From Nitrospirota bacterium (lineage in GTDB: Bacteria > Nitrospirota > Leptospirillia > Leptospirillales > Leptospirillaceae), in the NCBI GenBank assembly GCA_021820445.1, contig JAKADN010000006.1, positions 1 to 60,936 of the forward strand: 60,936 nt of DNA, given 5' to 3'. The notes beneath the pieces are model-generated. The model was given only the letters and a program-made list of their open reading frames with translations. It was not told the origin of the DNA and made no database searches. Shown here one piece after another: positions 11,820 through 33,529 of the stretch. The position numbers were made by a program, and so were the translations under genes. Numbering within the stretch: the stretch's first letter is position 1; each line of letters starts with the position of its first letter.

Positions 11820-13178
11820 TCAGAAATCCCGTCCGTATCCGATTTCCCGGTCGAGTTCATCCTCGATCATGGAGAGCCGGAACCGGTCGGCGATCAGCCT
11901 CTCCCGGCTGGTCAGGACCTCCGTTTCGGCATCGACGGCCGTCACCCCGTCGACAAGGCCCCGGGAAAAGCGTCGCTCCACAAGTCCAAGATTCTCCCGG
12001 GCATGGTCGTAACGGGCCTGGTCCAGAGACAGAGCCTCCTTCTGGGTCTCGAGATCGTCGTAGATCTTTCGGACGTTCCGGATGACCCTGAGGCGGACGA
12101 GGCGGGTCTTTTCCGACTCTTTTTTCGCCTCCATCCTCGCCCGCTCCGTATCGTGGAGGATCTCCCCTCCCACGAAGATGGGCACCGAGAGGGCGACCCC
12201 GCTCTGGAATGTCGGGAGAAAGAGCCCCGAACCGGCGGGAGCCCCGGAGATCGTGGCCGGGACCCCCCACAGGAGGAATCCCTGGGCAAAGAGGGAGAGG
12301 TGGGGATAGTTGCGGGTCCGGACCTCGTCGACCCGATTTTCCGACTCCCGGTCCCGGGCCCGGGCGGCCAGGATCAGGGGCCGATGGCGCAGGGCAAAGG
12401 CGGTCAGCTCGTCCACGGACCAGGCGGGGCCCGGTTGGCGGGGAGCGTCCTCCGTCCGGTAGGGGACCGGCGTTTCCCGTCCCATGGCGTAGACCAGGTC
12501 GGCCCGGGCCTTCTCGAGGGCATTTTCCTCTCGAATCCGTTCGAGGCGTGTCTTTTCGAGGAGCAGGCGCGCCATGGTGACGTCGGTGACGACCCCGAAT
12601 CCCCGGGCCAGGCGCTCCTGGGCCATTCGCAGATGGAGCGCCGCATCCTCCTCGTTTTTACGGGCTCCCCGGACGAGATGCTCGAACATCGCCAGCTGGT
12701 CGTAGGCCAGGTTGGCCCGGAACGAAACCGAGAGACGGGCTTCCGCGAGTTCCTCCTTCCGGCTCCGGAGCCGGAAGCGCTCCGCCCTGACCCGGTAATG
12801 GCGCCGGCCGAAGGTGGTGATATCCTGGGTCAGGGTGGGGTTCAGCATCTCGGGCGCGATCGGCTGGTAGTCCGGGAAGACCCCGCCGACGAAGGCCGAG
12901 TTCAGAAAAAGCTGGTCGAGGGAGACGGTCAGATGGGGATAGTAGTCGGCCTGGGCCACCCCCACTTTTTCGGTCTGCGCCCGGGAGCGGGCATAGGCGA
13001 TGGAGACGAGCGGATGGGAGGAAAGGGCCGCCTGCACGACCGTCTTCCGGTCGATGGGAACCCCCTCCTCCCCGGCCGTGACGGCCCGGAGCGGGAGAAG
13101 GGCGACCAGGATCCCCGTTCCCAGGACAAAGATCCTCCGGAAAAACGGGGAGAGGAGGCGCTTAGCTCTTGCGGGCAA
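11820..13178 (-). CDS. TolC-family outer-membrane efflux protein
   Basis: 452 residues from a TTG at 13178 with GAGGT 5 nt before it; no ATG lies near. A signal peptide ends near residue 35 (AVTAGEE). Two similar halves with long amphipathic helices match the outer-membrane-factor fold, a trimeric channel through the outer membrane and periplasm. The start lies 17 nt inside the HlyD-family gene, so the two are coupled. An inner-membrane transporter is not adjacent, so the partner must be encoded elsewhere. Confidence 0.88.
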   Translation of the reverse strand: MPARAKRLLSPFFRRIFVLGTGILVALLPLRAVTAGEEGVPIDRKTVVQAALSSHPLVSIAYARSRAQTEKVGVAQADYYPHLTVSLDQLFLNSAFVGGVFPDYQPIAPEMLNPTLTQDITTFGRRHYRVRAERFRLRSRKEELAEARLSVSFRANLAYDQLAMFEHLVRGARKNEEDAALHLRMAQERLARGFGVVTDVTMARLLLEKTRLERIREENALEKARADLVYAMGRETPVPYRTEDAPRQPGPAWSVDELTAFALRHRPLILAARARDRESENRVDEVRTRNYPHLSLFAQGFLLWGVPATISGAPAGSGLFLPTFQSGVALSVPIFVGGEILHDTERARMEAKKESEKTRLVRLRVIRNVRKIYDDLETQKEALSLDQARYDHARENLGLVERRFSRGLVDGVTAVDAETEVLTSRERLIADRFRLSMIEDELDREIGYGRDF

Positions 13179-14109
13179 TGGCCACCTCGGCCGACATGCC
13201 TGGGAAGATCGCCTGCCCCTTCAGGTCGTCGAAGACGATCCGGACCGGGATCCTCTGGACGACCTTCACGAAGGTGCCGGCCGCATTCTGGGTCGGAAGG
13301 AGGGCGAAGGCCTGGCTGGCCGCCGGGACGAACTCCAGGACCCTCCCCGTAAATCGGAGCCGGGGGAAGGCGTCGAGCCGGATCCGGACCTTCTGGCCGG
13401 GATGGACCTTCCAGACCTGGGTCTCCCGGAGATAGGCGTCGAGCCAGACGTTCTCCCGGCTTTTGGCATCGATGATGCTGACCAGAGGCTGGTCGGGACG
13501 GACCGTCTCTCCCAGGTTCACGAGCCTCTGGGCCACCTGGCCTGAAATGGAGGCGAAGACGGTGCGATTCCTCGGGTGGACCTCGGAGATGGAGAGCGCC
13601 TGGCGATCGGCCTCGATCAGACGACGGATCTCGGTCAGCTGGGCCATTTTCTTGCGGTAGGTGGTTTCGAGATCCTCGAGGTCCTGGGCCGAGATGAAGC
13701 GGTTCTTGAGAAGATCCCGGCCCCGGTGGTAATGGTCCCGGGCGTCGGCCATCTCCCGCTCGATCCGGACCTCACGGGCCCGGTCCCGCTCGAGGGTCCG
13801 GTAGGGAGAGAGGTTCCCGGAGGTGTCGTTTTTCCTGTTGGCACGATCCCCGGTGGTGTCGATGGTCGCGATCACCTCACCATAGTGAACGGGATCGCCC
13901 TCGTTGACCTTCAGGTCGAGGAGACGCCCTCCGACCGGAGAGGAGACCAGGGTGATCTTGCCCTGGACATAGCAATCGACCGACCGGACGTATCGCGTAT
14001 GGTCGATCAGGACATAAAGCCCCCACAGAAGGGTCCCGAGGAGTCCGGCCAGGGGAACGAAAACCCTCCAGGACCGAAGGGACAGGGGATTTTCAGGAAT
14101 ATCGGCCAT
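13162..14109 (-). CDS. HlyD/EmrA-family membrane fusion protein
   Basis: 315 residues, start supported by GGAGA 8 nt upstream. One N-terminal helix at about 14-36, a split lipoyl domain (VSSPVGGRLLDLKVNEGDPV near 55-75 and FASISGQVAQRLVNLGETV further on), a coiled-coil hairpin at about 105-180 and a C-terminal beta-barrel (LDAFPRLRFTGRVLEF). Such adaptors join an inner-membrane pump to a TolC-type channel, and the outer-membrane factor is the next gene. EmrA-like proteins often serve MFS pumps; that pairing here is inference. Confidence 0.9.
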   Translation of the reverse strand: MADIPENPLSLRSWRVFVPLAGLLGTLLWGLYVLIDHTRYVRSVDCYVQGKITLVSSPVGGRLLDLKVNEGDPVHYGEVIATIDTTGDRANRKNDTSGNLSPYRTLERDRAREVRIEREMADARDHYHRGRDLLKNRFISAQDLEDLETTYRKKMAQLTEIRRLIEADRQALSISEVHPRNRTVFASISGQVAQRLVNLGETVRPDQPLVSIIDAKSRENVWLDAYLRETQVWKVHPGQKVRIRLDAFPRLRFTGRVLEFVPAASQAFALLPTQNAAGTFVKVVQRIPVRIVFDDLKGQAIFPGMSAEVAIARKS

Positions 14110-14564
14110 CGGAATTTTCTCCGCTGCTCATCTCAGCCTTCATCCGGAACACCGCATGACAGAGGGTCTGGAAGAAAGAGTCCTTTTTTTCTTTATCAAG
14201 GAGGGATCTGGAAGGGAAAGCCTTGCGAAGGCGGGAAATCGATGCAGGGCCCGGACCGGGCGTCTGTCCAACGACAGGATCCGGATCGATTCCCACCATA
14301 CGCGTGCCTTTCCACCCATGGTAGGAGTCATCACCCTGTCCGGAATCAGGACAGGGATAGGCGAACCCCATCGCCGCCAGGAGATCTGGCACGACGATCC
14401 TAGCACGCCAAGAAACAAAGATCCAGCCCCCAGAATAAAAGGCTGAAAGATGTTTCATCCCGAATGGCCCTTGTCTCAGAGAGAATCCTGCCGGATTATG
14501 ATCTCCGTCATAGACTCAAGAATTTCGAAAATTCTCCGAAGAGATCCCTGAAAGGAGGTCGTCC
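14110..14564. other. Intergenic region upstream of the efflux pair
   Basis: 455 nt without a gene I trust. Minus-strand frames here (for example 14140-14418) have no family match, no good ribosome binding site and run across the HlyD start, so I leave them out. The region holds a perfect 8-bp dyad (14334-14356) and, at its right end, the Shine-Dalgarno sequence of a small plus-strand gene. No clear sigma-70 promoter for the efflux pair was seen; a weak TTGATA lies at about 14193 on the minus strand without a matching -10. Confidence 0.5.
14334..14356. promoter_or_regulatory. Perfect inverted repeat, possible operator
   Basis: CCCTGTCC and GGACAGGG flank a 7-nt spacer (GGAATCA). The dyad is perfect and neither strand has a T-tract after it, so it is not a standard terminator. 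It lies about 225 nt upstream of the HlyD-family start. A repressor site for the efflux pair is possible; a chance hairpin is the alternative. Confidence 0.4.
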
Positions 14565-26702: not shown

Positions 26703-27356
26703 ATGAAAATTTCCCTTTCATCCGTCTTCCCAACTCGCAGAGGCCCCCTCCTGGCGGGCATGGTCGCCATGAGTCTTCTGGCCGCCACGATCCTGTCCGG
26801 GACCGATGTCCGCGGCGCCTCGGCGAAGACCACACGCACGAAGGTCCTTTTCGTGACACAAAACGGATCTCGGGAAAAGACACTGGAACTCGTGCAGGGC
26901 CAGTCCACCCGCCTCCATTACAACCACTTCTGGATGGATGTCACCCGGAGCAAGCCTTTCGTGGACCCTGACGGACGCAAGATCGTCGTCCCGGAGACCC
27001 CCACATTCCGGGGGATTCACGAGATCACCGTCCGGTTCTGGCATCCGCGCGGGGAGCCGAACCTGCTCGACGCGATCGTCGTCAAGGCCTACGATGACAA
27101 GGGACATTTGGTCAAGCACGGGGCCTTCGACAGGGGCGTCTTCGTTCTCCTCCTCTCGAACAGCCTGTTCAATGGAAACTTTGTCCGCTTCGACGGGATC
27201 GGCCGCTATCTCCCCGGGGACAAGTCCTTCTATGTGAAGGTCATGGTTCGCAAAACACATCAAGTGGCGATCATTCCCTTCGCCGACTTCATCAACGACT
27301 TCACTCGGCAGATCAACACGCAGCCGGTCGTCTCCTGGGCCGTGAAACGCCCCTAA
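26703..27356 (+). CDS. Secreted protein of unknown function
   Basis: 217 residues, with AAGGAG 8 nt before the ATG. A signal peptide covers about residues 1-40 (hydrophobic MVAMSLLAATILSG, then GASA|KT). The mature domain is about 175 residues, beta-rich by appearance, with no cysteine and a motif-like HEITVRFWHPRGEPNLLDAI. No family recognised. It is a single gene between two divergently or separately promoted units, and its strong promoter suggests abundance. A hairpin without a T-tract (27374-27402) follows the stop. Confidence 0.8.
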   Translation: MKISLSSVFPTRRGPLLAGMVAMSLLAATILSGTDVRGASAKTTRTKVLFVTQNGSREKTLELVQGQSTRLHYNHFWMDVTRSKPFVDPDGRKIVVPETPTFRGIHEITVRFWHPRGEPNLLDAIVVKAYDDKGHLVKHGAFDRGVFVLLLSNSLFNGNFVRFDGIGRYLPGDKSFYVKVMVRKTHQVAIIPFADFINDFTRQINTQPVVSWAVKRP

Positions 27357-27461: not shown

Positions 27462-27489
27462 TTGCAATTGAAAAAAATCAGTGTATATT
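27462..27489 (+). promoter_or_regulatory. Promoter of the polyamine operon
   Basis: TTGCAA (27462-27467), 16-nt spacer, TATATT (27484-27489), set in an A/T-rich stretch unusual for this GC-rich window. Transcription would start near 27496, about 300 nt before speH. Confidence 0.65.
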
Positions 27490-27495
27490 CTGACC

Positions 27496-27792
27496 GATTG
27501 TTGACCGGACGCCGTTTTGCCCAGACAATGATTCTGGGGGACGGAATCGTCCCGCATTTCGCCCGTCGATCCCTCCAGGAGGAGACCGTGTCTCCCCGGA
27601 CCATCGTCGGGCCGTCCCTGTATCAAAGGAGCCACGTCGTGAACAGCGTCGTCGACAGACCGGGTTCCGGATTTCCGACAGGCCGTCCGGAGCTTCTGAA
27701 ACTCGTCTTCAAGATATTGACTGAATCGAGCCTTTGGCAGGTTTGGCCCAAAGGCTTCGGCTTGACCTAACGACACAACCAGGGGGTAACGA
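27496..27792 (+). promoter_or_regulatory. Long structured 5' leader of the polyamine operon
   Basis: About 297 nt lie between the expected transcription start and the speH GTG. Three short perfect stems are visible: 27538-27553 (GGGACG/CGTCCC, 4-nt loop), 27581-27595 (GGAGAC/GTCTCC, 3-nt loop) and 27730-27755 (GCCTTTGG/CCAAAGGC, 10-nt loop). A small ORF (27639-27770) with its own ribosome binding site ends 22 nt before speH. There is no T-tract terminator, so control, if any, would act on translation. I match it to no known riboswitch. Confidence 0.5.
27639..27770 (+). CDS. Candidate upstream ORF (leader peptide) of the polyamine operon
   Basis: 43 codons starting at a GTG with AAAGGAG 8 nt upstream. 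The 27730-27755 hairpin lies inside its last codons, so a ribosome translating it would melt the stem near the speH ribosome binding site (AGGGGGT at 27781-27787). The peptide has no known motif. Upstream peptides controlling polyamine genes are known (SpeFL in enterobacteria, the uORF of animal AdoMet decarboxylase), but similarity to those is by position only. Confidence 0.35.
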   Translation: MNSVVDRPGSGFPTGRPELLKLVFKILTESSLWQVWPKGFGLT

Positions 27793-28263
27793 GTGCACGC
27801 ACTGGGAACACATCTTCTAGTCGAACTGAAGGACTGTCAGTCCGATTCCCTTTCGGATCCGGATTTCGTTCGCACTTCTATGATTGACGCCGCAAAAAAA
27901 GCCCATGCCACCATCGTCGACGACAAGTTTCACCACTTCAGCCCTTTTGGGGTCAGCGGGGTCGTCGTCATCGCCGAGTCCCATCTGGCCATTCACACCT
28001 GGCCCGAGTACCGGTACGCGGCCGTCGACGTCTTCACTTGCGGAGACACCCTCAAGCCTGAGGTGGCCGCGATCCATCTGGCCCAGGTCTTCCAGTCCCA
28101 GAACCCCAGCATCCACGAGATCAAGCGGGGGATAATCGGAATATCCAACGAGAAGATCGCCCACAAGATCGAGGGGGACGCATCGCCCTCCGAAACCGAC
28201 GACATGCAGGGGAAAGGAATCGAATCCGATGAACGGAGCGAGAACCTCCAAGTGGTATATTGA
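27793..28263 (+). CDS. speH: S-adenosylmethionine decarboxylase proenzyme
   Basis: 156 residues from a GTG with AGGGGGT just upstream. Self-cleavage at Ser63 in ESHLAIHTWPE makes the pyruvoyl group; His68 and Cys83 (FTCGD) are the expected processing and catalytic residues. It supplies decarboxylated AdoMet, the aminopropyl donor. The C-terminal tail of about 30 residues is acidic and longer than in typical 120-130-residue SpeH proteins. Its last 35 nt overlap the speE-like gene. Confidence 0.95.
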   Translation: MHALGTHLLVELKDCQSDSLSDPDFVRTSMIDAAKKAHATIVDDKFHHFSPFGVSGVVVIAESHLAIHTWPEYRYAAVDVFTCGDTLKPEVAAIHLAQVFQSQNPSIHEIKRGIIGISNEKIAHKIEGDASPSETDDMQGKGIESDERSENLQVVY

Positions 28264-29149
28264 GTACGCGGCTCCGTCTCTGGGGCATATGCACGGAATC
28301 GACGGAATCATCGTCTCCCGCCAGACGAACTTCCAGAAGGTCGACATCCTTCGGACCAATGTTTACGGTAAAGCCCTGGCACTCGACGAGAAGATGCAGT
28401 CGACCCAGGTCGATGAATTCATCTATCACGAGGCCCTCGTCCACCCGGCCATGATCGCCCACCCCGCTCCCCGGTCCGTCCTGATCGTCGGTGGCGGGGA
28501 GGGCGCGACCCTCCGGGAGGCCCTGCGCCACCCGACGGTCGAACGCGCGGTGATGGTCGACATCGACGACCAGGTCATCTCCCTCTCGAAGGAGCATCTC
28601 CCCGAATGGCACCAGGGCGCCTTCGACGATCCCCGCTCGACCGTTCTCGCGACCGATGCGCGAAAATATCTCGAAGAATCGAAGGATATTTTCGACGTCA
28701 TCATCACGGATCTTTCCGAACCGGTGGAAGAGGGTCCCGCCTATCTTCTCTATACCCGTGAGTTCTACAAGATCGCGAGCGACCACCTGTCCCCCGGAGG
28801 AACGATCTCGGTCCAGGCCGGTGCGGCCGCGCTACCCTTCATCCTGGCCTTCTCCGCGGTCTACCAGACCATGAAGACCGCCTTTCCCACCGTTCGCGGA
28901 TTCTCGACCAACATTCCCTCCTTCGGGCTCCCCTGGGGATTCACGCTCGCGTCGAAAGGCGTCGACCCCCTCGCGATGGACCGCACGGCCGTCGACCGGA
29001 TCCTCGGAGAACGGGGGCTGACCAATCTCCGCTTCTATGATGGCCTCGCCCACCAGGGACTTTTCGGCATTCCGCGCCATCTCCGGACAGAGCTGGACAA
29101 ATCGACGCTCATCATCGAGGACAACCACCCCATCTTCACCTATCACTAG
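28229..29149 (+). CDS. speE: Polyamine aminopropyltransferase, ACL5/Thermus-like
   Basis: 306 residues. The AdoMet-type fold shows GGGEG at 88-92 and VMVDIDD at about 108-114. The substrate loop reads DLSEPVEEGPAYLLYT (161-176), followed by QAG at 196-198 and IPSFGLPWGF at 229-238. From memory these resemble plant ACL5 thermospermine synthase and the Thermus triamine synthase more than the usual D-S-T-D-P spermidine synthase pattern. The product could be spermidine, thermospermine or aminopropylagmatine. The gene symbol marks the superfamily, not the substrate. Confidence 0.9.
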   Translation: MNGARTSKWYIEYAAPSLGHMHGIDGIIVSRQTNFQKVDILRTNVYGKALALDEKMQSTQVDEFIYHEALVHPAMIAHPAPRSVLIVGGGEGATLREALRHPTVERAVMVDIDDQVISLSKEHLPEWHQGAFDDPRSTVLATDARKYLEESKDIFDVIITDLSEPVEEGPAYLLYTREFYKIASDHLSPGGTISVQAGAAALPFILAFSAVYQTMKTAFPTVRGFSTNIPSFGLPWGFTLASKGVDPLAMDRTAVDRILGERGLTNLRFYDGLAHQGLFGIPRHLRTELDKSTLIIEDNHPIFTYH

Positions 29150-29167: not shown

Positions 29168-30640
29168 ATGGACCAGACCAAAACGCCTCTTTTCGACGCG
29201 ATGGTCTCCCTTGCCGAAAGCCGGAAGGTCTCCTTCCATACCCCCGGCCATAAAAGCGGAAAAGGGATCTCGACGCGTTTTCGCAAGTTTGTGGGACCCC
29301 GTGTCTTCTCGATCGACCTGACCTGTCTCGACGAAGTGGACTCTCTCCAGAAGCCCCGGGGCGTCATCAAGGAAGCCCAGGAACTGGCGGCGGAAATCTA
29401 CGGTGCCGACCGCTCCTACTTTCTCGTGAACGGAACCTCCGGTGGAAATCAGGCCATGGTTGTGGCGACCCTGAATCCGGGGGAGCCGGTTCTCGTGACC
29501 CGGAACGTCCACAAATCGGTCGTCTCCGGGATGATCATGACCGGATGCCAGCCCGTCTTCATCCCTTTCCGGACCGAGCACGGCGCCTCCTTTCCCCTGA
29601 ACTACGGGACCCGGGACATTCTCGACAGTATCGAAAACCATCCCGAGATCCGGACCCTCTACCTGACCTCCCCCAACTACTACGGGGTCACCATCGATTT
29701 GCCCCGGGTTGCGGAAGCGGCCCACGCCCGGGGGATGCGCGTCCTTCTCGACGAGGCCCACGGCCCCCATCTCCATTTTCACCCGGAGCTCCCGGCCTCC
29801 GGCATGGCTGCGGGAATCGACCTGACGGTTCAATCCACGCACAAGATCATCGGGGGAATGACCCAGGCCTCCATGCTCCATGCCCGGAAGGAGCGTATCG
29901 ACGTGGAGCGCCTCTCCACTGTTCTCCGTTATCTCCAGACGACGAGTCCTTCCTACATTCTGATGGCCTCGCTCGACCTGGCCCGCATGCAGATGGCGAC
30001 CGAGGGAGTGAAGCTTCTGGGCCGGGCCCTGGAGCTGGCCCGGTGGGCCCGGCTGAAGATCCGGGAGATCCCGGGGCTGAAGTGCGCCAACCGGACGGAA
30101 ATCCAGGCCATGTCGGGAGGGGAGAACGACCTCGACGAAACGAAGCTGACCATCGATGTCCGGGGGTGGGGCGTCTCGGGGTATCAGGTCTCCCAGCGGC
30201 TGAATCTCGACTTCGGGATCCAGGTCGAGATGGCCGACATCGATCATGTCCTCGTCATCGTCAGCATCGGGGATCATCGCGGAGACCTCGAGCGGCTGGT
30301 CAACGCCCTGATCGCCCTTTCCCGGGAGAACCATCGCCAGGAGAGCCGATCCCCGATCCCTTCGATGGTCTTTTTCGACAATCTTCTCCGGATGACGCCG
30401 AGGGAGGCCTTTTTCGCTCCCCACGAAACCCTGCCCCTGGAGGATTCTGTCGGAAGGATTGCAAAGGACATCGTGACCGTCTATCCTCCCGGCGTCCCCC
30501 TTCTTGTCCCGGGAGAGGAGATCACCGCTCCTGTCATCGACACCCTCTGTCGTTTTCGGGACTCCGGGGCGACGATGGACGGCCTCGACATGACCAACCG
30601 CTTCATCGGTGTGGTTGGGGAGAGCCCTTCTCCGGAATAG
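29168..30640 (+). CDS. speA: Arginine/lysine/ornithine decarboxylase, fold I (SpeA-like)
   Basis: 490 residues. PLP-dependent aspartate-aminotransferase-fold enzyme: N-terminal SFHTPGHKSGKG, LVNGTSGGNQAM, DEAHGPH, and the Schiff-base Lys226 in STHKIIGG. Bacillus enzymes of this length act on arginine, making agmatine; lysine or ornithine specificity cannot be excluded from sequence. It is 18 nt after the aminopropyltransferase, in the same operon. No agmatinase or agmatine deiminase is adjacent. Confidence 0.9.
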   Translation: MDQTKTPLFDAMVSLAESRKVSFHTPGHKSGKGISTRFRKFVGPRVFSIDLTCLDEVDSLQKPRGVIKEAQELAAEIYGADRSYFLVNGTSGGNQAMVVATLNPGEPVLVTRNVHKSVVSGMIMTGCQPVFIPFRTEHGASFPLNYGTRDILDSIENHPEIRTLYLTSPNYYGVTIDLPRVAEAAHARGMRVLLDEAHGPHLHFHPELPASGMAAGIDLTVQSTHKIIGGMTQASMLHARKERIDVERLSTVLRYLQTTSPSYILMASLDLARMQMATEGVKLLGRALELARWARLKIREIPGLKCANRTEIQAMSGGENDLDETKLTIDVRGWGVSGYQVSQRLNLDFGIQVEMADIDHVLVIVSIGDHRGDLERLVNALIALSRENHRQESRSPIPSMVFFDNLLRMTPREAFFAPHETLPLEDSVGRIAKDIVTVYPPGVPLLVPGEEITAPVIDTLCRFRDSGATMDGLDMTNRFIGVVGESPSPE

Positions 30641-30781
30641 CCCTCCCTTTCCGCGCCCTTCCCTATTTCTGGAACTTCAGGCCCCCGCCCGCTGCCGGCT
30701 TCTCTCTTCATTCTTCATTGCCAGCAGATCCTTCCGCGGCGCAGAATGAAGGGAGACGCGAACACCCATTCAGGAGACCCC

Positions 30782-33529
30782 ATGCGAAAACAATGGCCCC
30801 TCGCCGCCCTGGTCCTTCTGGTTGTCCTGTACTTTGGAGGCCAGTCCCTTCTCGACCTCTGGGCCGATTACCTCTGGTACCGCTCGAATGGCCAACTGCC
30901 GGTCTTCCTGACCTTGCTTGAGGCGAGAAGCGCCCTTTTCCTGGGGGTCTTCCTCCTCTTCTTCCTTGTCCTGGCAGCGACCCTGCGCCCCCTGATCCGG
31001 GCCCTTCCCACCCTCACATTCCGAAGACGGGGACCCGCAGGAGGTCTGGAGCCCGTCTCGCTCCCTCTCTCGGGCCTGTCTCCCTTCATCGGTGCAGGGC
31101 TCGTGGTCGTGGCCCTTCTGGTCGCCCTCCCCCTTTCGGACACCCCGGATGCCCTCCGTTTTCTGGCGGCCATCCATGCTCCCGCCACTGGGTCTTCCGA
31201 TCCGATCCTGGGACTTCCTCTGGGATTTTATCTCTTCCACCTCCCGGTCTACGACCTTCTCTCGGGCCTCCTTCAGGACGCTTTTCTCTTTTCGCTCGTT
31301 TTAGGCGTCCTTCTGGGACTTCCGGGAGGACAGATCTCATTCGCACAGAACAGGCTCTCCCTCCACCCCGTCTGGAGGAAGGTCCTCATGCGTCTTTCGG
31401 CGGGACTTCTTCTTGTCCTCTCCCTTGAGGCCCTGCTTCTCCGGACGAAGACCCTCCTGTCCAGCCACCAGGCTCTGTCCGGAGCCTCCTACGTCGATGT
31501 CCATGCCCGAATCCCTGCCGCCACCCTTCTCTCCCTGATCCTTCTCCTGGCGGCCCTCGCCTTCCTCCTGGAAAGCTTCCGGACGCTCTCCCGCCTCTCG
31601 GTCCCGATTCTGGGCATCGCCTTTTTCGTCTGGGCGGGAGGGCTGGTCGTCACTCCCTGGATCCTCTCCCGGTTCGTGGTCCTCCCCGACCAGTTCAACC
31701 GGGAGCGCCCCTACATCCTTCACAACATCGCCGGGACACGGAAGGCCTTCCATCTCGACGGCACCCATTCCGAGCGCATTACGAACCTGGCCGACCTCAC
31801 GCCGGCGGACCTTGCGGACAACAGGCCCACCATCCGGAACATCCGGCTCTGGGACCACCGCCCCATGCTGACCACGGTCCGCCAGCTCCAGCAGATCCGG
31901 ACCTACTACACCTTCCCGATCCTGGCGCCGGACCGCTACCGGATCAACGGAGTCCTCCGGCAGGTCCTGGTGGCACCCCGGGAGATTTCCTACGCGAACC
32001 TTCCGAGCCCCAACTGGATCAACCTTCACCTGACCTACACCCATGGCCACGGGCTGATCATGTCGCCTGTCAACCGTGTCTCGCCGGAAGGCCTTCCCAC
32101 CTTCTGGGTCCGGGACATTCCTCCCCAGGCCTCGATCCCCCTGGCGGTTTCCCATTCCCGGATCTATTACGGAGACCAGCCCTCCCCCTACGCGATCGTC
32201 AACACCCGCATTCCCGAGTTCGACTACCCCAAGGGCCGGCAGAACATCTACAACCACTACGACGGAACGGGAGGGATCCGCCTCTCCTCCTCTCTCCGGA
32301 AGCTCCTGTATTCCTACGAATACGGGACCTTCAAGATCTTTCTGTCGACCGCCATCACAGACCGGAGCCGCATCCTGGTCCACCGGGACATCTTCGACAT
32401 CGTCGAGCGTCTGGCCCCCTTCCTGCGCCTCGACCCCGACGTTGTCCCGGTCATTGGCCCCGGTGGTCATCTGGTCTGGATGATGGACGCCTACACCACC
32501 TCGGATTCCTATCCCTATGCCTCGGAGATCTCCGGGTCGGCCGGCTTCTTCCACACCGGACGGCTGATCCGAAGTGGACACAGACAGGCTCTTTCATCCT
32601 GGCCGGAACGCCTCAACTACATCCGCAACTCCGTCAAGATCCTGGTCGACCCAAAAAACGGAACCGCTTCCTTCTATGTGGTTGATCCGGGCGATCCGGT
32701 CCTCGCCGCCTATAAAAATGCCTTTCCGACCCTGTTCCGCCCGGCTTCCGACATCCCCCAGGAGATCCTCCCCCATCTGCGCTTCCCCCCGGCGATGTTC
32801 TCCCTGTCGGCCCTCGTCCTTTCGGCTTATCACATGACCGACCCCCAGGTCTTCTTCAACCGGGAGGACCTGTGGTCCCTGGCCGAGCGGGATGGACGCC
32901 CACTCTCGCCCTACTACATGGTTTTGCGGCTGCCCGGAGAGTCCCAGGAGGAATACGTCATGATGCTCCCCTATACTCCGGCCCACCGGGACAATCTGTC
33001 GGCCTGGCTCGTGGGCCGTTCCAAGCTGGAACGCCAGGGAAAGCTCAGGGTCTACCGCGCCCCCAAGGAGCGCCTGATTTACGGCCCGAACCAGATCGAG
33101 GCCCGCATCGACCAGCGGGGGCCCATATCCAAGCAATTGACCCTCTGGAATCAGCAGGGATCACGGGTGGTCCGTGGAACGCTCCTGATCATCCCGATCG
33201 CCCATTCCCTCCTGTATGTCGAGCCTCTCTATCTCTCGGCCACCAGCCCGGGGGCTCTCCCCGAGCTGCGCCGCGTGATCGTGTCCATGGGGGATCGGGT
33301 CGTCATGAGAAAAACCCTCGATAGGGCTCTCACCGATCTGTTTTCCGGAACTCCAGGGCCGAATCCCACCGGAATCTCCCTGGGGAAAAGCGGAACAGGA
33401 ACCAGGCGCCCGGGATTTTCCGCGCGACTGAAAGAATTGGGGAGGGAGGCCGACGAGGCCCTCCGACGTGGGGATCTCGCGACCTTCGGGGATCGGGTAC
33501 AGAAGATCCTCAGGGATCTTCGCCAGTAG
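30782..33529 (+). CDS. UPF0182 family membrane protein
   Basis: 915 residues from the ATG at 30782, with CAGGAG 6 nt upstream; an in-frame codon at 30746 lacks this. The N-terminal third (to about residue 310) holds seven hydrophobic helices; the rest is a large, probably extracytoplasmic domain with the family signatures RPYILHNIAGTRKAF, YGDQPSPYAIVNT and FDYPKG. UPF0182 proteins occur in cyanobacteria, actinobacteria and a few other phyla, and their function is unknown. It follows the arginine decarboxylase by 141 nt, so co-transcription is possible but not shown. Confidence 0.93.
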   Translation: MRKQWPLAALVLLVVLYFGGQSLLDLWADYLWYRSNGQLPVFLTLLEARSALFLGVFLLFFLVLAATLRPLIRALPTLTFRRRGPAGGLEPVSLPLSGLSPFIGAGLVVVALLVALPLSDTPDALRFLAAIHAPATGSSDPILGLPLGFYLFHLPVYDLLSGLLQDAFLFSLVLGVLLGLPGGQISFAQNRLSLHPVWRKVLMRLSAGLLLVLSLEALLLRTKTLLSSHQALSGASYVDVHARIPAATLLSLILLLAALAFLLESFRTLSRLSVPILGIAFFVWAGGLVVTPWILSRFVVLPDQFNRERPYILHNIAGTRKAFHLDGTHSERITNLADLTPADLADNRPTIRNIRLWDHRPMLTTVRQLQQIRTYYTFPILAPDRYRINGVLRQVLVAPREISYANLPSPNWINLHLTYTHGHGLIMSPVNRVSPEGLPTFWVRDIPPQASIPLAVSHSRIYYGDQPSPYAIVNTRIPEFDYPKGRQNIYNHYDGTGGIRLSSSLRKLLYSYEYGTFKIFLSTAITDRSRILVHRDIFDIVERLAPFLRLDPDVVPVIGPGGHLVWMMDAYTTSDSYPYASEISGSAGFFHTGRLIRSGHRQALSSWPERLNYIRNSVKILVDPKNGTASFYVVDPGDPVLAAYKNAFPTLFRPASDIPQEILPHLRFPPAMFSLSALVLSAYHMTDPQVFFNREDLWSLAERDGRPLSPYYMVLRLPGESQEEYVMMLPYTPAHRDNLSAWLVGRSKLERQGKLRVYRAPKERLIYGPNQIEARIDQRGPISKQLTLWNQQGSRVVRGTLLIIPIAHSLLYVEPLYLSATSPGALPELRRVIVSMGDRVVMRKTLDRALTDLFSGTPGPNPTGISLGKSGTGTRRPGFSARLKELGREADEALRRGDLATFGDRVQKILRDLRQ

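Follow-up and report, generated by a model that had tools for sequence, protein, structure and literature searches.

A conserved leader peptide ahead of the Leptospirillum-type spermidine operon suggests a previously undescribed ribosome-stalling sensor

The spermidine operon analyzed here is located in a window of 60,936 nucleotides (the whole stretch of DNA that was studied) from a Nitrospirota genome about 2.2 Mb in size. It consists of speH, speE, a gene for an Orn/Lys/Arg decarboxylase and, as the fourth gene of the cluster, a gene for a UPF0182 membrane protein (Table 1). A spermidine cluster of the same four genes has been described for Leptospirillum (PMC7231039). The region upstream of the operon encodes a 217-aa protein (26703-27356, +), which has no Pfam match, adjoins the spermidine operon in five genera and is present as a weaker second copy (about 28-30% identity) elsewhere in several genomes. 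The orphan 'hyp1' reported upstream of the Leptospirillum spermidine cluster (PMC7231039) more likely corresponds to this 217-aa ORF than to the leader ORF that is the subject of this study. In another part of the window a fluoride riboswitch (14315-14384, -; Rfam RF01734, 35.1 bits, cut-off 34) precedes a gene for an HlyD-family membrane-fusion protein (13162-14109, -), and no recognised fluoride exporter adjoins it.

Table 1. Features of the speH leader and operon in the window, and small ORFs upstream of speH at loci of certain or likely Cloacimonadota
Feature	Position	Strand	Evidence or remark
Sigma-70-type promoter TTGCAA-16-TATATT	27462..27489	+	promoter search; kept across the family
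UCCCUG, possible anti-Shine-Dalgarno	27615..27620	+	pairing with CAGGGG of the speH Shine-Dalgarno; genus level only
Leader ORF Shine-Dalgarno AAAGGAG	27625..27631	+	AGGAG or AAGGAG in 18/18 members
Leader ORF, 43 codons + TAA, (M)NSVVDRPGSGFPTGRPELLKLVFKILTESSLWQVWPKGFGLT	27639..27770	+	orthologue of 43-50 aa in 18/18 speH-bearing family genomes
9-bp inverted repeat in the last leader codons	27729..27756	+	no covariation; 81.5% of cells paired
Invariant C-terminal nonapeptide VWPKGFGLT, presumed arrest/sensor segment	27741..27767	+	236 synonymous : 0 non-synonymous
speH Shine-Dalgarno AGGGGG	27781..27786	+	core starts at 13-19 nt, counted from the first stop-codon base of the leader, throughout the family
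speH, S-adenosylmethionine decarboxylase proenzyme	27793..28263	+	TIGR03330 145 bits, PF02675
speE, spermidine synthase	28229..29149	+	PRK00811 equivalog above cut-off, PF01564
Orn/Lys/Arg decarboxylase	29168..30640	+	PF01276
UPF0182 membrane protein, fourth cluster gene	30746..33529	+	PF03699
Small ORF loci, Cloacimonadota or likely Cloacimonadota	L071:2683-2829, L072:2736-2894, L084:2652-2804, L089:2723-2875, L109:2687-2833		

For comparison, 21 genomes of the family were sampled, and speH was found in 18 of them, spanning five genera. An earlier reading, made from the sequence only, had placed a promoter about 300 nt before speH, and this promoter is indeed present and conserved. The -35 box TTGCAA (27462-27467) and the -10 box TATATT (27484-27489) are separated by a 16-nt spacer and match the consensus in 9 of 12 positions. 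In the alignment, a matching promoter pair was seen in 18/18 family members, with the pattern TTGCAAT..GTGTATATT in the genus of the window and TTGAAAT/TTGAATT..GAGTA... in the other genera. The transcript is predicted to start at about position 27496, resulting in a leader of about 297 nt; in the family members with a matched promoter pattern, the leader length varies from 258 to 349 nt. From the position of the promoter, we infer that the leader ORF and speH share one transcript. The 5' half of the leader showed no conservation between genera in the alignment. In the L011 leader, an insertion of about 45 nt with repeated TCTATCCGG-type units is located about 45 nt before the leader Shine-Dalgarno sequence (SD).

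The GTG-started ORF of 43 codons with a strong ribosome binding site, which the sequence-only reading had proposed within this leader, is real and conserved far beyond chance. It occupies the same place directly upstream of speH, with its own SD, in all 18 speH-bearing family genomes and starts with GTG, as in the window, or ATG. A longer version starting at GTG 27588 (60 aa) is found in six close relatives and not family-wide, and the start at 27639 was preferred. The peptide ends in SLWQVWPKGFGLT in the window and in GLWHVWPKGFGLT, GLWVVWPKGFGLT, GLWLVWPKGFGLT or GLHFVWPKGFGLT in its relatives; all 18 genomes share an unchanged VWPKGFGLT with TAA or TAG directly behind it. Counting pairwise differences between distinct sequences, we found 236 synonymous and not a single non-synonymous change in the codons of this nonapeptide, while the other two frames of the same nine-codon stretch gave ratios of 16:195 and 18:193 (synonymous:non-synonymous). 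Within six close relatives, the corresponding values were 28:0 for the last 13 leader codons, 66:135 for the N-terminal part of the leader ORF and 438:50 for the first 110 codons of speH. This pattern indicates selection on the C-terminal amino acids and hardly any on the rest of the leader peptide. A conservation that is concentrated at the C-terminus, together with a nearly free N-terminus, is the pattern expected of a nascent peptide whose C-terminus would act in the exit tunnel. Furthermore, TGA is used as stop codon in none of the 18 family leaders, although it terminates 21 of the 37 genes predicted in the window; this gives a weak hint that release depends on RF1, as it does with SpeFL. 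In the genus that comprises L016-L018, the leader stop codon is enclosed by a perfect 8-bp hairpin, TTTGGGCT-GACCT-AGCCCAAA, and the leader peptide contains an internal DWMWQ segment with a loose resemblance to the C-terminus of the same peptide.

When searched with a degenerate DNA pattern encoding WPKGFGLT plus a stop codon, 18 of 296 Nitrospirota genomes gave a match, once in each case. These are exactly the family members with speH, and the site always lies before this gene. In the three family genomes without a speH match, two of which are clearly incomplete assemblies, a speE match and the motif are missing as well. The VWPKGFGLT motif was absent from the 275 other Nitrospirota (degenerate DNA pattern) and from all 399 Pseudomonadota, and it was not found beside the more distant speH loci examined. 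Allowing two mismatches revealed no second site in six genomes tested. As the motif is confined to one bacterial family, the comparison is of limited depth. Neither Rfam nor Pfam nor NCBIfam contained a match to the leader, and a literature search returned no hit for 'WPKGFG' and no description of a speH leader peptide.

The position of the leader ORF relative to speH is also conserved. In all 18 members, the leader stop lies 21-28 nt from the start of the AdoMet decarboxylase gene (offsets 21, 22, 24 and 28), a geometry of the MAGDIS type. The relative frame of leader and speH varies between members, and speH has its own SD everywhere. With a stop codon in its A site, a ribosome extends about 12-13 nt beyond the first base of the codon. 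Given the distance of the SD core from the leader stop (Table 1), a ribosome paused on this stop codon would have the speH SD at its front edge, so that it would contact the ribosome-binding site of speH and keep a second ribosome out.

The folding of the leader, which the sequence-only reading had emphasized, proved less informative. The short perfect stems that it described do exist, as five perfect inverted repeats of at least 6 bp (four of 6 bp, one of 9 bp) are present in 27496-27792, but their number is close to the chance level: shuffled leaders contained 2.0 ± 1.4 repeats, 5% of them reached five and 5% reached a 9-bp stem. The folding energy of the whole leader is unremarkable (z = -1.34), and 12 of 100 shuffles were equally good. 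The last stem, originally reported at 27730-27755, was recovered as the 9-bp repeat at 27729-27756, but not as a conserved RNA element, because compensatory changes were found nowhere in the family and the stem is lost in L016-L018; it is probably a by-product of the codons. Across the relatives it is the ORF (18/18) and not the stems that is conserved upstream of speH; in distant genera the stems have been lost.

When 14 members were folded locally, no shared structure emerged around the speH SD and hence no SD-sequestering hairpin common to the family, although this SD was often paired in the individual folds. In addition, base pairing between UCCCUG, located just upstream of the leader SD, and CAGGGG in the speH SD is possible in 11 of 11 aligned genus members; UCCCUG is invariant in the genus and therefore shows no covariation. 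L013-L015 have other sites near the leader start that are able to pair, whereas such a pairing is lacking in L016-L018. It is possible that the long-range pairing forms a second layer of control at the genus level. Classical codon-count attenuation was rejected, since no terminator-like site was detected on the + strand of the leader and the residues that are conserved do not consist of one amino acid repeated.

The C-terminal conservation, the constant placement with respect to the speH SD and the conserved promoter are all in agreement with the earlier suggestion of a SpeFL-like switch, unrelated in sequence, that acts on translation ahead of speH, and a peptide-based translational switch appears well supported by the comparison of the genomes. 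On balance, the leader ORF probably encodes a metabolite-sensing arrest peptide, and a ribosome stalled at its stop codon would block initiation at speH. The leader ORF would be translated from its own SD until a metabolite of the polyamine pathway, most likely spermidine or a near relative, causes the ribosome to stall at the leader stop codon. The parked ribosome would end at or just before the speH SD, a second ribosome could not load, and the output of SpeH, and probably that of the coupled speE and the decarboxylase, would fall. At low ligand concentrations, normal termination on the leader would allow translation of speH. We infer the stalling itself as well as its site, the ligand that triggers it and the sign of control. 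Product feedback is proposed on the basis of the precedents discussed below, of the detection of spermidine in L. ferrooxidans (PMC7231039) and of the products of the single aminopropyltransferase of L. ferrodiazotrophum, which were spermidine and some spermine in E. coli (PMC11107197). More tentatively, and with some doubt on our side, the motif VWPKGFGLT-stop could be a novel spermidine sensor that provides feedback on AdoMet decarboxylase, a mechanism that bacteria and mammals would then have reached independently. Three points speak against repression by an arrest peptide: the fixed spacing would suit translational coupling or reinitiation too, the motif is confined to one family, and the sequence of the peptide resembles that of no known arrest peptide.

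A stalled ribosome might also act with the opposite sign. In the style of SpeFL and TnaC, a stall caused by a substrate or precursor (ornithine, arginine, putrescine or AdoMet) would induce the operon, either by preventing Rho termination or by freeing the speH SD from an upstream anti-SD. This route gains some weight from the induction exerted by SpeFL and MdtU and from the possible UCCCUG/CAGGGG pairing with its counterparts in L013-L015. We nevertheless regard it as unlikely: with a gap of only 21-28 nt the stalled ribosome would sit on the SD itself or crowd it, and the pairing shows no covariation and is absent in L016-L018. The same constant short gap, together with the frequent pairing of the speH SD in local folds, would fit a coupling that needs no ligand, in which translation of the leader would supply speH with reinitiating ribosomes or unmask the speH SD, and the conserved C-terminus would have no role beyond the tuning of termination. 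Nine invariant amino acids would not be needed for such a coupling, yet not one non-synonymous change was observed there, and we give this explanation a slightly lower rank among the unlikely ones.

If the peptide were a small functional protein with a trans-acting role, for instance towards SpeH or a membrane partner, its clear conservation and its linkage to speH would be explained. However, only the last 9-13 residues are conserved, directly at the stop codon, and no domain was matched, which makes this improbable. Still less can be said for an RNA-based switch in the 300-nt leader. The five perfect stems are reached by just 5% of the shuffles, but the Rfam search gave no match, and the earlier reading had likewise matched no known riboswitch class; with the z-score of -1.34, the missing covariation in the named stem and a 5' half that is unconserved between genera, we rejected a riboswitch and consider any RNA-based switch very improbable. 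A fusion of the leader to SpeH by antizyme-like frameshifting or stop-codon readthrough comes last and was rejected as hardly credible. In L004, L005 and L007 the speH frame has no stop codon in the stretch behind the leader, but in the window TAA at 27787-27789 closes this frame just before the speH start, the varying offsets do not preserve a frame relation, and speH has an SD of its own in every member.

To our knowledge, only a small number of bacterial leader peptides that sense metabolites have been described. If the favored explanation, repression of speH by an arrest peptide, is true, it shows how extreme acidophiles control polyamine synthesis and provides a bacterial parallel to the uORF of the mammalian AdoMet decarboxylase. 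The short invariant motif and the clear position of the stop codon make stalling, ligand and sign of control directly testable.

Small ORFs were also observed upstream of speH outside the family. Five Cloacimonadota or likely Cloacimonadota loci (Table 1) share a different conserved ORF, roughly 50 aa long and equipped with an SD, with the pattern F.RIHS...ALY...DDEE(V/I)L..LSAFSATLTP, the stop of which lies 106-196 nt before speH. It has no confident Pfam match and is possibly a second, unrelated speH leader peptide. In two relatives of Vampirovibrio (L103:2781-2867 and L104:2187-2273), the speH match is preceded by a shared small ORF that carries DLIWASFQN close to its C-terminal end. Behind this ORF, the two have a nearly identical stretch of about 130 nt, which may represent an N-terminal extension of SpeH.

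Among the known systems, SpeFL and TnaC of E. coli both arrest at termination, SpeFL by inhibiting RF1 (PMC8429421). Like the speH leader, SpeFL is a leader peptide of similar length in front of a polyamine gene, and it arrests termination against RF1 (PMC8429421; PMC7815308). It differs in sequence and is a gamma-proteobacterial ornithine sensor that is located upstream of speF and induces this ornithine decarboxylase operon via Rho and RNA structure, whereas the first gene here is speH, the enzyme is AdoMet decarboxylase and the leader stop is close to the SD. The tryptophan sensor TnaC shares the arrest at termination with a stop codon in the A site (PMC8429421), but has another motif, uses UGA and RF2, and induces a catabolic operon by a Rho-based mechanism. 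MdtU, the uORF of the E. coli spermidine exporter mdtJI, is likewise conserved at its C-terminus, and its translation is required for the induction of its operon by spermidine (PMC7815308). In contrast to the speH leader, its stop lies 106 nt before mdtJ, the induction of export is linked to Rho, and no sequence similarity is apparent by eye. Judged by its sequence, the speH leader is a new family of putative regulatory leader peptides and not a member of the SpeFL, TnaC or MdtU families. In the mammalian AMD1 uORF, spermidine causes the ribosome to pause at the stop codon of the MAGDIS peptide, which sterically blocks initiation (PMC13025110). This uORF differs from the speH leader by eukaryotic scanning instead of SD-dependent initiation, by a peptide of six residues and by the lack of sequence similarity; stalling is proven there and presumed here. 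Both systems encode a short peptide just upstream of AdoMet decarboxylase, with a stall at the stop codon proposed for the bacterial one, and by analogy the AMD1 MAGDIS uORF is the nearest functional parallel of the speH leader.
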